A stretch of DNA of 64,000 nt from Halanaerobium saccharolyticum. GTDB lineage: Bacteria > Bacillota > Halanaerobiia > Halanaerobiales > Halanaerobiaceae. The stretch covers positions 186,001-250,000 of the forward strand of contig NZ_QAXS01000001.1 of NCBI RefSeq assembly GCF_003053565.1, read 5' to 3'. The translations under genes and the position numbers were made by a program. This document shows positions 11,701-44,156 of the stretch, one piece after another. The first letter of the stretch is position 1. Each line of letters begins with the position of its first letter. The notes below the pieces were generated by a model that worked only from the letters and a program-made list of their open reading frames with translations, did no database searches and was not told the origin of the DNA.

Positions 11701-11761
11701 TCACTATAACCAGGTCCAAAAAGTCTGTTTTGGACCTGGTTATAGTGAGCAAAAGCACAAA
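11701..11761 (+). repeat. Oriented palindromic repeat, copy 1 (forward)
   Basis: The left arm TCACTATAACCAGGTCCAAAA (21 nt in all) pairs perfectly with 11728-11748 around a 6-nt loop. The box AGCACAAA (11754-11761) begins 13 nt after the core GGT of the right arm, the same spacing seen in all other copies of the family. This is the only copy far from the uvr region and the one with the longest perfect stem. It lacks a T-run, so it is not a normal terminator. Confidence 0.85.
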
Positions 11762-38087: not shown

Positions 38088-38097
38088 GTATTCATTG

Positions 38098-38152
38098 GTA
38101 CCAGGTCCAAAACGTCCGTTTTGAACCTGGTACAGGATAAATATTTCACAAA
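38098..38152 (+). repeat. Oriented palindromic repeat, copy 3 (forward), uvrA-RAYT
   Basis: GTACCAGGTCCAAAACG pairs with CGTTTTGAACCTGGTAC (one mismatch, 2-nt loop, 38098-38133). TTCACAAA (38145-38152) lies 13 nt beyond the core GGT and faces the transposase gene. It begins 10 bases after the uvrA stop. Confidence 0.88.
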
Positions 38153-38159
38153 CACTATT

Positions 38160-38211
38160 CCATTTAATGGGTTAATGTGATATAATATTATACAATAAAT
38201 CCATTAAATGG
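38160..38211 (+). promoter_or_regulatory. RAYT promoter framed by an 11-bp inverted repeat
   Basis: CCATTTAATGG (38160-38170) and its exact reverse complement CCATTAAATGG (38201-38211) enclose an extended -10 promoter, TGATATAAT (TATAAT 38181-38186). The right arm overlaps the start of the GGAAGGTG ribosome site of the transposase gene. The arrangement could be an operator pair or an RNA hairpin that hides the ribosome site. Confidence 0.6.
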
Positions 38212-38222
38212 AAGGTGATAAA

Positions 38223-38801
38223 ATGTCAAGAGAAAAACGACCATGGTACCCGGGAGCAGTCTATCATATTGTCAGCAGAGGTAATCGCCAGGGACATCTG
38301 TTTAGAGATCAATTGGATTTTGATTTTTATTTGGATATTTTGAGAAAAGCTAAAGCTAAATATGAATTTGAGTTGCTTTCATATTGTCTAATGACTAATC
38401 ACATTCACCTTCAGCTTAAAACTGGAGAGGTTAAGATTGGAAAATTAATGCATTACATCAATCTTCTTTATGCAAGGTATTTCAATTATAAGCATGATCT
38501 GATTGGTCATGTTTTTCAGGGGAGATATTTTTCAAAATTAATAAAAGATGACTTTTATAATTTAGGAGTCAATCGATATATTCACTTGAATCCAGTAGAA
38601 GCTTCAATCGTTAGTAAGGCCGAAGATTATAGGAGAAGCAGCTATCAGATTTATTTAGGATTGAAAGAGAGTGATTTAATTAATGATAGTTTGATTCTTG
38701 CTTCTTTTTCAAATGATAGAGCGCTTTACAAAAAATTTATTGAATCAAAGGAAATTAATAAAAAATTAGATCAGGAAATTAAAAATGAATGCGAATTGTG
38801 A
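38223..38801 (+). CDS. REP-associated tyrosine transposase (RAYT, Y1/HUH family)
   Basis: A single-strand DNA transposase of the IS200-related TnpA_REP group, 192 residues. The HUH motif is HIH at 60-62 (MTNHIHLQL), and the single catalytic tyrosine is probably Tyr119 in RYIHLNPVEA, both characteristic of RAYTs. The N-terminal WYPGAVYHIVSRGNR and internal GHVFQGRYFSKL are also family features. Such enzymes recognise and nick palindromic REP hairpins and are thought to spread them. Here the gene lies between two inverted copies of a palindromic repeat, and its stop codon falls inside the box of the right copy. The frame is open from ATG 38208; ATG 38223 after GGAAGGTG is preferred. Codon use is visibly more AT-rich than uvrA, suggesting transfer. 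Confidence 0.93.
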   Translation: MSREKRPWYPGAVYHIVSRGNRQGHLFRDQLDFDFYLDILRKAKAKYEFELLSYCLMTNHIHLQLKTGEVKIGKLMHYINLLYARYFNYKHDLIGHVFQGRYFSKLIKDDFYNLGVNRYIHLNPVEASIVSKAEDYRRSSYQIYLGLKESDLINDSLILASFSNDRALYKKFIESKEINKKLDQEIKNECEL

Positions 38802-38848
38802 AATAAATAATTATAACCAGGTACAAATGTGCACTTTTGTACCTGGTT
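38795..38848 (-). repeat. Oriented palindromic repeat, copy 4 (reverse), RAYT-GGDEF gene
   Basis: The arms AACCAGGTACAAA / TTTGTACCTGGTT (38815-38848) have the compensating change C to A on the left and A to T on the right, so pairing is kept where copies 2 and 3 have a mismatch. ATTGTGAA (38795-38802) lies 13 nt to the left, pointing at the transposase gene and containing its stop codon. Confidence 0.88.
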
Positions 38849-41900: not shown

Positions 41901-42324
41901 TTTAGAACAGGACCGACTCTACCTCTTAACTCAGATGCATGATATTGGTAAGATAGCAGTTCCAGAAGAAGTTTTAAATAAAACTGATAAATTAAATGCT
42001 GAAGAGTGGGAAATAATCAAAAAACATACCGAAACAGGTTTTAGAATAACTTCGAATATTGAAGATTTTGCTCATATCTCCTCAGAGATATTACACCACC
42101 ATGAGCGCTGGGACGGTACAGGTTATCCCGAAGGGCTCAGCGGCAGAGATATCCCGCTGCTCTCCAGGGTGCTGACAATAGTTGATTCCTATGATGTAAT
42201 GAACAGTGGTCGTCCTTATAAAGGAGCGATGACTGAAGCAGAGGCCTTAACTGAACTTCAAAGCTGTGCCGGCAGTCAGTTTGACCCGGAACTGGTGGAA
42301 AAATTTATTGAAAGTTTAGGTTGA
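38914..42324 (+). CDS. Membrane PAS/GAF sensor with GGDEF and HD-GYP domains
   Basis: A 1136-residue cyclic-di-GMP enzyme. About three membrane helices lie at 10-95. A PAS domain follows at about 240-350 (LNSIGDGLLVTDREGRVRRL), a second at 365-490 and a GAF-like domain at 490-660. A third PAS comes at 680-800, then the diguanylate cyclase domain with an intact RWGGDEF (GGDEF 881-885). RDED (872-875), five residues before it, fits the product-inhibition I-site. The C-terminal HD-GYP phosphodiesterase has HDIGK at 1009 and HHHERWDGTGYP near 1061-1072. Both synthesis and breakdown motifs are complete. TTG 38914, 6 nt after GGAGGTG, is chosen over GTG 38905. Its stop TGA is the first three bases of the next palindromic repeat. 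Confidence 0.92.
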   Translation: MKKKRIRELMQSKTAAVIVAVLLTIIAFNVKMELIEPLLILFVIYSSLNFAKKGAIFSAVFVVSVLAVQDLYNLQINLSEYFVEVLVIIIAAAYIVKSTSRNRELNFNLKERVKELAGLYRISEAAEKYNLDRDQLLNKIVEEIPASYQYPEDCAARISYRGKIYQTDNFRESDWMQQQEIVINDQPVGKIEVAYLSEHPEEYSGTVFLKEEFELLNSINSKINSVLRNLEQEKEINEQRQFLSITLNSIGDGLLVTDREGRVRRLNAVAENLTGWTTAEAEGREITEIFNIFNSQTGKEVKNPVEKVLKNGKIVGLANHTKLIARDGKEYHIADSAAPIKRGDGTIDGTVMVFRDVSKSYQMREKIKQREKMFSSALNEAPISIMVHAEDGEVVIVNNTWIEITGYQREEINTISKWVDKAYPNKQEKIKKEINKSFVVDKSTGGEFEVWTSEGEKRIWDFKTAPLSQDEKGRKLVISTAVDITRRKKAEKELQKLNEIYRTLSMVNQLIVRERSLNDLLEEAAQITSDYGRYKNIWIGKIGPARDELQILTSTENNCPFIEVDEDYSLKLEDLAFNFKDKLLISEQNKLIQNSCQEISGLDLSISEHCGSRAFFLLEVREEPWGVFSFCSAEADHFDETEVKLLDELTGDISLGIEKIINEKMRLESEKRLKESEENYRRLFENSPVGIFKTTSTGQVKMINPHMAQLLGFDSISETITYYNDLKNTLYVNSERRDQFLNQLKSEGIVSNFVYQAYDRYQNILWLEMNARVSEKNDDGSFEIDGFCRDITERRQSEEKIRYLGFHDKLTGLYNRAFLEEEIKRVDTARQLPISIIMGDLNNLKLINDTYGHQSGDQLIKEAAEIFKESCRDEDIIARWGGDEFVVLLPQTAAVESEKIIKRINSSLEKEEGELQVSISLGTAVKNDPEDELMVVLSRAEDRMYKNKIASRKSARSSVLSAFLTSLKEKSSETEEHVHRMSSLAENFAKVLGLSNLEQDRLYLLTQMHDIGKIAVPEEVLNKTDKLNAEEWEIIKKHTETGFRITSNIEDFAHISSEILHHHERWDGTGYPEGLSGRDIPLLSRVLTIVDSYDVMNSGRPYKGAMTEAEALTELQSCAGSQFDPELVEKFIESLG

Positions 42325-42377
42325 ACCCGGTCCAAAACGAACATTTCGGACCGGGTTCAGAAGAAATAATTCACAAA
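42322..42377 (+). repeat. Oriented palindromic repeat, copy 5 (forward, CCCGGT type)
   Basis: TGAACCCGGTCC pairs with GGACCGGGTTCA (42322-42359); the inner AAA/TTT pairs after one mismatch. TTCACAAA (42370-42377) lies 13 nt beyond the core GGT. Compared with copies 1-4, the arm has changed from CAGGT to CCGGT on both sides, which keeps pairing. The first three bases are the stop codon of the sensor gene. Confidence 0.88.
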
Positions 42378-42424
42378 TCAGATGTAAATTATTTTAGCTG
42401 TTTCAAATGAGGAGGACAAACTGC

Positions 42425-44098
42425 ATGCAAAAAAAATTGGCTATTGGAATTAATGATTTTAAAAAATTACGAGAAGAAAACTATTATTATGTTGATAAAA
42501 GTCTATTGATTAAAGAAATAATCGATGAAGATGCAGAGGTTCTTCTTTTACCAAGGCCCCGGCGATTTGGGAAAAGTTTAAATCTTTCTATGCTGCGCTA
42601 TTTCTTTGAAAATAGTGAAAATGATAACTCAAATTTATTTAGTGGTTTAAAAATAGCTGAAAATGAATTTAACTGTCTGGAGAAAATGGGTAAGTTCCCA
42701 GTAATCAATTTAGATTTTAAAGGTTCTAGAGCTAATAATTGGGAGCTTGCTCTGCAGAGACTTAAACGTTCCATTGCTGTAGAATTTCAGCGCCATAGCT
42801 ACCTTTTAAAAAGCGATAAACTTTTAGAGTATGAAAAGGAAGAATATCAGGATATAATGGCTTTAAAGGCTGATCAAACTGCTTATGAGTTTGCTTTAGA
42901 GAATCTTTCGCGTTATCTAAAAGAATTCCATCAGCAAAATGTTATTATATTAATAGATGAATATGATGAAGCAGTTCAGGCTTCCTATTTAAATGAATAC
43001 TATGATCAAATGCTTGATTTTATGCGCAGTTTTTTAATCCGGGGGCTAAAAGGTAATCCTAATCTTGAAAAAGGTATTTTGACCGGTATTTTAAGAGTTG
43101 CAAAAGAAAGTATATTTTCTGGTTTAAATAATTTACTGGTCAGTGGTCTGTTAGAAAGTAAGTATGATCAATTTTTTGGACTTCTGGAGAAGGAAGTAGA
43201 AGAGATTTTTAGTTATTATGATTTAGAATATAGACTTCAGGAAGTAAAAAGATGGTATAATGGTTATTATTTTGGTGACCAACTTGTTTATAATCCCTGG
43301 TCTATTATAAACTGTATTGCCAGTCAGGGCGAATTAAAACCTTACTGGGTAAATACCAGTGGTAATGAATTGATTAAAGATCTAATAATTAACGCAGAGG
43401 CTGAGGTTAAGGGTCAATTTGAAGACCTGTTAAAAAATAAATCTTTTAAAACCCGAATAGATGAAAATATTGTTTTTGCAGATGTTAGAACTAAAAGTAG
43501 TTCTCTCTGGAGCTTTCTTTTATACAGTGGCTATTTAAAAGCAAACACCAGGCAGCGGGAACAGGGCAGACTTTATTGTGAACTCGAGATTCCCAATCAG
43601 GAGATAAAGTATATTTATGAGGAGATAATTTATGATTGGTTGGAAGAAAGTATAAGTAGTAATAAATTGAGTGAAATGCTAACCGCTTTAATAACCGGAA
43701 ATATTGAAGAATTCAGTTTAATTTTCAAAGATTTTGTTTTAAGCAGTATGAGCAGCTTTGATCCAGCAGGAAATGAAGCAGAAAAAGTTTATCATGCCTT
43801 TGTTTTAGGATTATTATTAAATTTAAATGATAATTATGAGATTAATTCAAATAGAGAAAGTGGTTATGGACGTTATGATATTATGGTTATTCCGAATAAA
43901 AAAGATAAACTGGGAATAATAATTGAATTTAAAAAAGTGGCTGATAATGAAAACTTAGATAAAGCTGTTAAAGCTGCTTTAAAACAAATCGAAGAAAGAA
44001 AATATCAGCAGGAATTAGAAAAAAGAGGTATAAAAAATGTAATTCATTTAGGAATTGCTTTTTCTGGAAAAAATGTTAAAATAAAAGCTGCTGAATAA
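42425..44098 (+). CDS. AAA-ATPase-like protein with C-terminal PD-(D/E)XK nuclease domain
   Basis: A 557-residue member of the AAA-ATPase_like plus DUF1703/PDDEXK_9 family. The N-terminal IGINDFKKLREENYYYVDKS leads into the nucleotide loop RPRRFGKS (44-51), the family's version of Walker A. IILIDEYDEAVQ is Walker B. The nuclease-like end has Asp485 in GRYDIMV and Glu501-x-Lys503 in IEFKK, the expected PD-(D/E)XK pattern. Biological function is unknown; the family is often found in many copies per genome. ATG 42425 with GGAGG 9 nt upstream is preferred over ATG 42407. The gene is bracketed by two closely similar palindromic repeats and is more AT-rich than the uvr genes, which suggests acquisition. 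Confidence 0.88.
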   Translation: MQKKLAIGINDFKKLREENYYYVDKSLLIKEIIDEDAEVLLLPRPRRFGKSLNLSMLRYFFENSENDNSNLFSGLKIAENEFNCLEKMGKFPVINLDFKGSRANNWELALQRLKRSIAVEFQRHSYLLKSDKLLEYEKEEYQDIMALKADQTAYEFALENLSRYLKEFHQQNVIILIDEYDEAVQASYLNEYYDQMLDFMRSFLIRGLKGNPNLEKGILTGILRVAKESIFSGLNNLLVSGLLESKYDQFFGLLEKEVEEIFSYYDLEYRLQEVKRWYNGYYFGDQLVYNPWSIINCIASQGELKPYWVNTSGNELIKDLIINAEAEVKGQFEDLLKNKSFKTRIDENIVFADVRTKSSSLWSFLLYSGYLKANTRQREQGRLYCELEIPNQEIKYIYEEIIYDWLEESISSNKLSEMLTALITGNIEEFSLIFKDFVLSSMSSFDPAGNEAEKVYHAFVLGLLLNLNDNYEINSNRESGYGRYDIMVIPNKKDKLGIIIEFKKVADNENLDKAVKAALKQIEERKYQQELEKRGIKNVIHLGIAFSGKNVKIKAAE

Positions 44099-44100
44099 TT

Positions 44101-44156
44101 TGAACCCGGTTCAAAATGGACTTTTCGGACCGGGTACAGAAGAAATAATTCACAAA
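44101..44156 (+). repeat. Oriented palindromic repeat, copy 6 (forward, CCCGGT type)
   Basis: TGAACCCGGTTCAAAA pairs imperfectly with TTTTCGGACCGGGTACA (44101-44138). TTCACAAA (44149-44156) lies 13 nt beyond the core GGT. The 13-nt spacer and box are nearly identical to copy 5. It begins two bases after the stop of the ATPase gene and ends next to the AAGGTG ribosome site of uvrC. Confidence 0.85.

Follow-up and report, generated by a model that had tools for sequence, protein, structure and literature searches.

The described systems closest to the locus reported here are REPtrons, TIRtrons and the insertion sequences of the IS200/IS605 family. REPs of the GTAG type, as published, combine a conserved motif at the 5' foot with a hairpin, and have no fixed cleavage box. 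In IS200/IS605 elements, the last tetranucleotide is cleaved under the guidance of another tetranucleotide, which precedes the right-end hairpin on its 5' side (PMC6006769, PMC8266576). TIRtrons, most of which belong to TnpAY1 subclass 2.1, were reported in 2013 to have repeats that are sometimes self-complementary and are moderately abundant in the genome (PMC3733652). The TIRYT proteins of subclass 2.1 are marked by the motifs NH[VYF]H, FQ or W[EQ], Y[IV]HLNP and an SS tail; when this subclass was surveyed in 2018, both automatic and manual searches for REP-like sequences came back empty (PMC6006769). A literature search found no paper linking Halanaerobium to REPs.

Here we analyze a stretch of 64,000 nucleotides from the salt-loving bacterium Halanaerobium saccharolyticum (the window), together with the 3.2-Mb genome that contains it and its relatives. 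The window holds a RAYT gene flanked by an inverted palindromic repeat that has many intergenic copies in the same genome, which is a REP/RAYT arrangement in the wide sense. We judge gene and repeats to be a REP/RAYT-type unit of new anatomy, and consider it quite probable that the gene is a domesticated, single-locus Y1 transposase of the TnpA-REP/RAYT class, with its own non-autonomous family of 58-nt repeats.

Results and discussion

The RAYT gene and its flanking units

The features of the window discussed below are the following:

11704 to 11761, + strand: further unit copy, with the variant box AGCACAAA
35195 to 35252, - strand: further unit copy, between uvrB and uvrA
38095 to 38152, + strand: left REP-like unit, comprising TTGG, hairpin (38098-38133), linker and box TTCACAAA (38145-38152)
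38223 to 38801, + strand: RAYT / TnpA-REP-like Y1 HUH transposase gene, 192 aa
38795 to 38852, - strand: right REP-like unit, inverted, with hairpin at 38815-38848 and box at 38795-38802
42320 to 42377, + strand: further unit copy, 3' of a GGDEF/HD-domain gene
44099 to 44156, + strand: further unit copy, between an AAA-ATPase/PDDEXK gene and uvrC

A sequence-only reading of this DNA had proposed a TnpA_REP-type protein with HIH at residues 60-62 and Tyr119 within RYIHLNPV, and it was correct on both counts; H60, H62 and Y119 are invariant in an alignment of 11 sequences. The gene, which has an in-frame ATG upstream at 38208, matches Pfam Y1_Tnp (PF01797) with an E-value of 3.6e-14, and its product has the domain, the HUH motif and the catalytic tyrosine of a Y1 HUH transposase. 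Its score against the NCBIfam equivalog REP_Tyr_transpos is 60.9 bits, under the cut-off of 80; E. coli TnpA-REP (4ER8) is its sole PDB match in a family profile search (E 0.005), and an AlphaFold model (pLDDT 55.7) was too weak for use. Class 2 of TnpAY1 (TnpA-REP/RAYT) is indicated by YIHLNP (Y---NP), by low copy number and by the relation to TnpA-REP; the source genome has two divergent RAYT copies. Within this class, the protein shows the NHIH, FQ, YIHLNP and SS tail of subclass 2.1/TIRYT (Table 1 of PMC6006769), a placement made by motif comparison rather than by a tree with reference sequences, and with I in the HUH motif where the table gives V/Y/F. The distal HTH/DnaA_C-like C-terminal domain of subclass 2.1 is absent from this RAYT, which stops at 192 aa; homologues in two other genomes (G005 and G006) are longer and run past that end.

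Closely related RAYTs form a clade (clade A, support 98/96) found in the source genome (G000) and in G019, G010, G016, G014 and G015. An inverted repeat with 19-nt arms and an 18-nt spacer (38158-38213) surrounds the TATAAT of the -10 region, overlaps the RAYT Shine-Dalgarno sequence and is kept in clade-A relatives; it is possibly an autoregulatory site of the gene.

The palindromes at 38098-38133 and 38815-38848 face inward and are inverted around the gene, as had been claimed, and both units are recovered by a covariance model (G000:C1:224095-224152, E 5e-15; G000:C1:224795-224852, E 5.5e-13). The right-hand box reads TTCACAAT on the - strand (38802-38795); both boxes fit TTCACAA(A/T), and each lies on the gene-facing side of its hairpin. 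The RAYT stop codon, TGA at 38799-38801, falls inside the right-hand box, again as first noted, and this overlap recurs in clade-A relatives, whose proteins are 67-70% identical. As folded single-stranded DNA, both hairpins have z-scores of -4.7 to -5.5. The right-hand unit also scores terminator-like on the - strand.

Beyond the RAYT gene, the unit at 44099-44156 is a direct repeat of that at 42320-42377, and the AAA-ATPase/PDDEXK gene (42407-44098; PF09820, PF08011) sits between the two. This gene is absent from G019, G010 and G016, with a single unit at that junction in G019 and G016, as if it had been gained or lost via recombination between the flanking units.

Anatomy of the 58-nt unit

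The repeat had been taken to be the palindrome. The palindromes are there, but what is conserved is larger: a 58-nt unit made of TTKG[TA]A, a 30-nt core, T, 13 nt and the box TTCACAAA. Conservation runs from TTKG[TA]A, six bases ahead of the core, to the end of the box, and the flanks beyond are unconserved. The proposed distance of 13 nt between box and palindrome edge holds if counted from the outer T of the stem, and becomes 14 when counted from the core. In 39 of 41 dereplicated copies from several genomes a G stands at position -3 of the 5' foot; only box-bearing copies entered this pile-up, so that the foot and the linker, and not the box, count as independent evidence in it. Evidence for the box comes from copies picked by their hairpin alone: TTCACAAA, at 7 or 8 matches out of 8, lies at exactly offset 14 from the core in 25 of 46 copies, against about 1.8 expected at any offset and in either orientation from shuffled flanks. 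GT[AG]G is absent from the 5' foot of the hairpin, where TTKG[TA]A is found instead, which bears out the view that the palindrome is unlike GTAG-headed REPs. Some units carry a TTTG foot, complementary to CAAA.

The stem covaries. Among 43 copies, 57 double-changed cells were counted versus 19.6 in shuffles (0/500), and the signal is gone once the pairing partner is slid by one base. Stem position 3 uses all four Watson-Crick pairs and stem position 7 uses three of them. Changes on one side only (G-C to G-U, for example) number just three, and this near-lack favours pairing in DNA over pairing in RNA. Arm-to-arm copying at palindromes could be an added source of covariation. When orthologous hairpins of G000 and G019 are compared, in-place changes comprise three that are compensated and eight, most of them close to the loop, in which a pair is broken; compensation after insertion is therefore weak.

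By analogy with the right end of IS200/IS605 elements, the TTCACAAA box is likely the cleavage site. It might instead be a putative site for a host or replication protein that couples the hairpin to the replication fork, and not a cut mark at all. Its ATTCACA does share ATNCACA with the DnaA box TT[AT]TNCACA (consensus from PMC6006769), and many subclass 2.1 proteins bear a DnaA_C-like tail; but the units do not conserve the TT with which the DnaA box begins, the trailing AAA of the TTCACAAA box is conserved as well, and the RAYT itself is without the tail domain, all of which makes such a role very unlikely.

Copy number and distribution among Halanaerobiales

A degenerate hairpin pattern has four distinct exact sites in the window, versus none expected from shuffles, and 34 in the genome, where 50 sites are found at up to 3 mismatches and reversed-pattern controls give 0 matches. 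Pooling window and genome matches yields 46 distinct hairpin sites. The repeat is therefore not confined to the RAYT locus, a condition on which the sequence-only reading had staked its claim, and three clade-A relatives have 40 to 73 matches to the covariance model. In full, and including both strands of a near-symmetric hairpin, the model counts are 102 in G000, 73 in G016, 71 in G019, 54 in G017, 40 in G010, 36 in G022, 15 in G012, 8 in G014, 7 in G015, 5 in G011 and 1 in G020; G013, G018 and G021 have 0 matches, and any other genome of the order has at most 1.

Within Halanaerobium, copy number follows the presence of a RAYT at the uvrA locus, with exceptions. Genomes with such a gene have 102, 73, 71, 54, 40, 8 and 7 matches, those without have 15, 5, 1, 0 and 0, and a rank test on these 12 genomes, which are not independent, gives p = 0.005 with G017 as a carrier and p = 0.02 otherwise. 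The expectation that repeats would be scarce without a RAYT stands for G013, G018, G020 and G021 (no RAYT match, 0-1 copies) but not for G022, a member of another genus in which no RAYT was detected despite 36 matches. Conversely, G014 and G015 have a RAYT but only 7-8 matches; the hairpins beside their RAYT are collapsed, although the linker and the box can still be recognised. Four species keep the inverted units on both sides of the gene, and decayed relics of this layout are seen in two more. G017 carries a divergent RAYT at the same uvrA locus, outside the supported clade, yet has 54 matches.

A second palindrome family (GGTACCGGGTACYTGG...) takes sites where other species have the 58-nt unit: it is found in G017 at sites orthologous to L111, L008, L007 and L020, and also at the flanks of L052. 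Similar short repeats bracket the divergent RAYT of G017, where RAYT and repeat have possibly changed in parallel.

The other RAYT of the source genome (L017, G000:C1:34034-34552; 50% identity) was rejected as partner of the repeats, since palindromes of the unit type do not surround it. It adjoins an apparent terminator hairpin, AAAAGACCAGCGG, also present beside its relatives in G012, G016, G010, G019 and G017, and it represents a lineage of its own that has been inherited vertically.

The RAYT gene at 38223-38801 could also be read, together with the hairpins on either side, as an ordinary autonomous IS200/IS605 insertion sequence, with the scattered hairpins as MITE-like derivatives. The catalytic domain is IS200-like, hairpins stand at both ends, and a site lies 3' of the hairpin as at the IS200/IS605 right end (PMC6006769). 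Against these likenesses, all six clade-A genomes carry the gene once, always at the uvrA locus, and none has a second copy above 50% identity, and its tyrosine motif is Y---NP; a multi-copy mobile gene with Y---Q, as in IS200, is not what we find. The ends are moreover inverted here. Ends of IS200/IS605 elements are not known to be inverted repeats. An autonomous element is thus a most improbable description of this locus.

Age and movement of the copies

In G000 and G019, the closest pair of genomes, nearly all copies occupy orthologous sites, which gives no sign of recent burst mobility, and one occupied site is common to G000, G016 and G017; copies at sites shared across species make the repeat population an old one. 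At the L043 site, the unit is present in G000 and G017 and a remnant in G012, whereas G016 joins the flanks directly. The anchors are 40 nt apart in G016 versus 107 with the unit, a difference that is not polarised (gain or loss) and whose edges, in A+T-rich microhomology, are uncertain by a few nucleotides. At two further sites, the intergenic gaps of G011 and G013, which are without clade-A RAYTs, are 53-59 nt shorter, or about one unit. Elsewhere, sites differ because a deletion runs through the hairpin or because another palindrome has taken its position. Several candidate empty sites were rejected: L109 (G019 vs G000) is a half-hairpin deletion, linker remnants persist at L070/L071 (G016 unit vs G017) and indicate decay, and others hold a different palindrome family.

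To the left of L044 (G000:C24, about 46100), a short sequence, GAGAAAGCCTCGCTCATG...GGCGGGGAGGATG, that occurs at several places in the genome adjoins a unit; we take it to resemble an IS605-type right end.

Placement of the copies and proposed mechanism

Most copies are single units, not paired REPINs, and 35 of the 46 lie between co-directional genes. They typically follow a stop codon by 10-30 nt (median about 24 nt), and the box strand runs along the gene in 16 of 20 copies. Genes and replication are often co-directional, so placement cannot separate an effect of transcription from a preference for one replication strand.

Such placement, mostly shortly after stop codons and with a 16:4 strand bias, would fit a host role for the hairpins (as terminators, stabilisers of mRNA 3' ends or sites for regulators) that does not involve the RAYT, whose gene would then just happen to stand between two of them. 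Genomes such as G022, which have repeats and no detected RAYT, agree with this reading. T-tracts after the stem are, however, rarer (2/46 and 4/46) than in nearby sequence (12/46), on which ground intrinsic terminators were rejected as a class; an RNA element was rejected because there is no Rfam match and G-U intermediates are almost nil. Nor would host elements be expected to keep a box at a fixed spacing of 14 nt, to covary almost exclusively by Watson-Crick pairs, to bracket a RAYT in inverted orientation across species, or to be absent from relatives without any RAYT. We therefore regard a host function independent of the RAYT as unlikely.

If the repeats are the partners of the RAYT, the protein would bind single strands of the unit in their folded form, at the hairpin together with the TTKG on its 5' side. 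Cleavage by Tyr119 would fall in the TTCACAAA box or close to it, 14 nt past the 3' side of the hairpin, and would be guided by the foot as at the IS200/IS605 right end. Copies a short way downstream of genes may stem from rare cut-and-join events during replication. Both units at the RAYT gene would be cognate to it, and the stop codon inside the box would tie gene and repeat together.

The hairpin outside the order

The hairpin alone was scanned for in 84,980 species, with one genome per species. Among the matches listed are Halanaerobium, Rossellomorea, two Bacillus species and one Omnitrophica MAG. All seven of the non-Halanaerobium hairpin genomes that were checked encode RAYTs of the present protein family, with best E-values of 6e-39 to 3e-62. 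Since genomes of this kind often have RAYTs, the co-occurrence is support and not proof. The box is absent beside the hairpins of these non-Halanaerobium genomes (Bacillaceae). Near some of their RAYT genes we found palindromes or arrays such as GAGCCAGGCTC and GTGCCAGGCAC; in Bacillus salacetis (L309, G061), at least 15 tandem copies of the palindrome GAGCCAGGCTC follow one another every 25 nt directly 3' of the RAYT.

Comparison with known systems

The initial description as a REP/RAYT unit was right in kind, but the protein lies on the 2.1/TIRYT side and GTAG is absent, which makes TIRtron-like the closer label. With TIRYTs and TIRtrons (subclass 2.1, equivalent to RAYT group 1; PMC3733652, PMC6006769) the locus shares NHIH, FQ, YIHLNP and the SS tail, and a gene flanked by inverted repeats. 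It differs from them in that the protein is without the distal HTH/DnaA_C-like domain, and in that the repeat is not GGGGWSAS but an asymmetric 58-nt unit that has TTKG at its 5' foot and the TTCACAAA box at constant spacing. Given the repeats of TIRtrons, a repeat partner for a RAYT of the 2.1 type is not unheard of; what is new here is the anatomy of the unit, and the evidence from covariation and distribution.

With REPtrons (GTAG REPs; subclasses 2.2, 2.4, 2.5, 2.7 and 2.8; E. coli 4ER8) it shares a single domesticated Y1 gene, inverted bracketing by an intergenic palindromic repeat, and a conserved short motif at the 5' foot of the hairpin. In contrast to them, it has no GT[AG]G and has an extra conserved box 14 nt 3' of the hairpin, and the similarity between the proteins is weak (PDB profile E 0.005). 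With the right end of IS200/IS605 elements (IS608, ISDra2) it shares, as a comparison of anatomy only, the order of guide, hairpin, linker and candidate cleavage site, whereas it shows no mobile IS, a class 2 tyrosine motif and units inverted around the gene.

These comparisons raise the tentative idea, to which we give somewhat less than even credence, that RAYTs have a third type of substrate, represented by this unit: every repeat would by itself retain a guide foot, a hairpin and a site for cleavage, and could be a complete, one-ended mobile unit. If so, RAYT group 1/subclass 2.1 would have its first demonstrated REP system, and one that stands as a natural intermediate between the ends of IS200 and REPs of the GTAG type. 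The locus bears on the unsettled questions of how REP repeats spread and where RAYTs cut, and because the conserved box keeps its distance from the hairpin on one strand, a single oligonucleotide with its mutant versions would suffice for a direct test of guide and cleavage models. The locus also provides a repeat partner, in a lineage of diderm Firmicutes, for a subclass of RAYTs in which a survey devoted to them had found no REPs.
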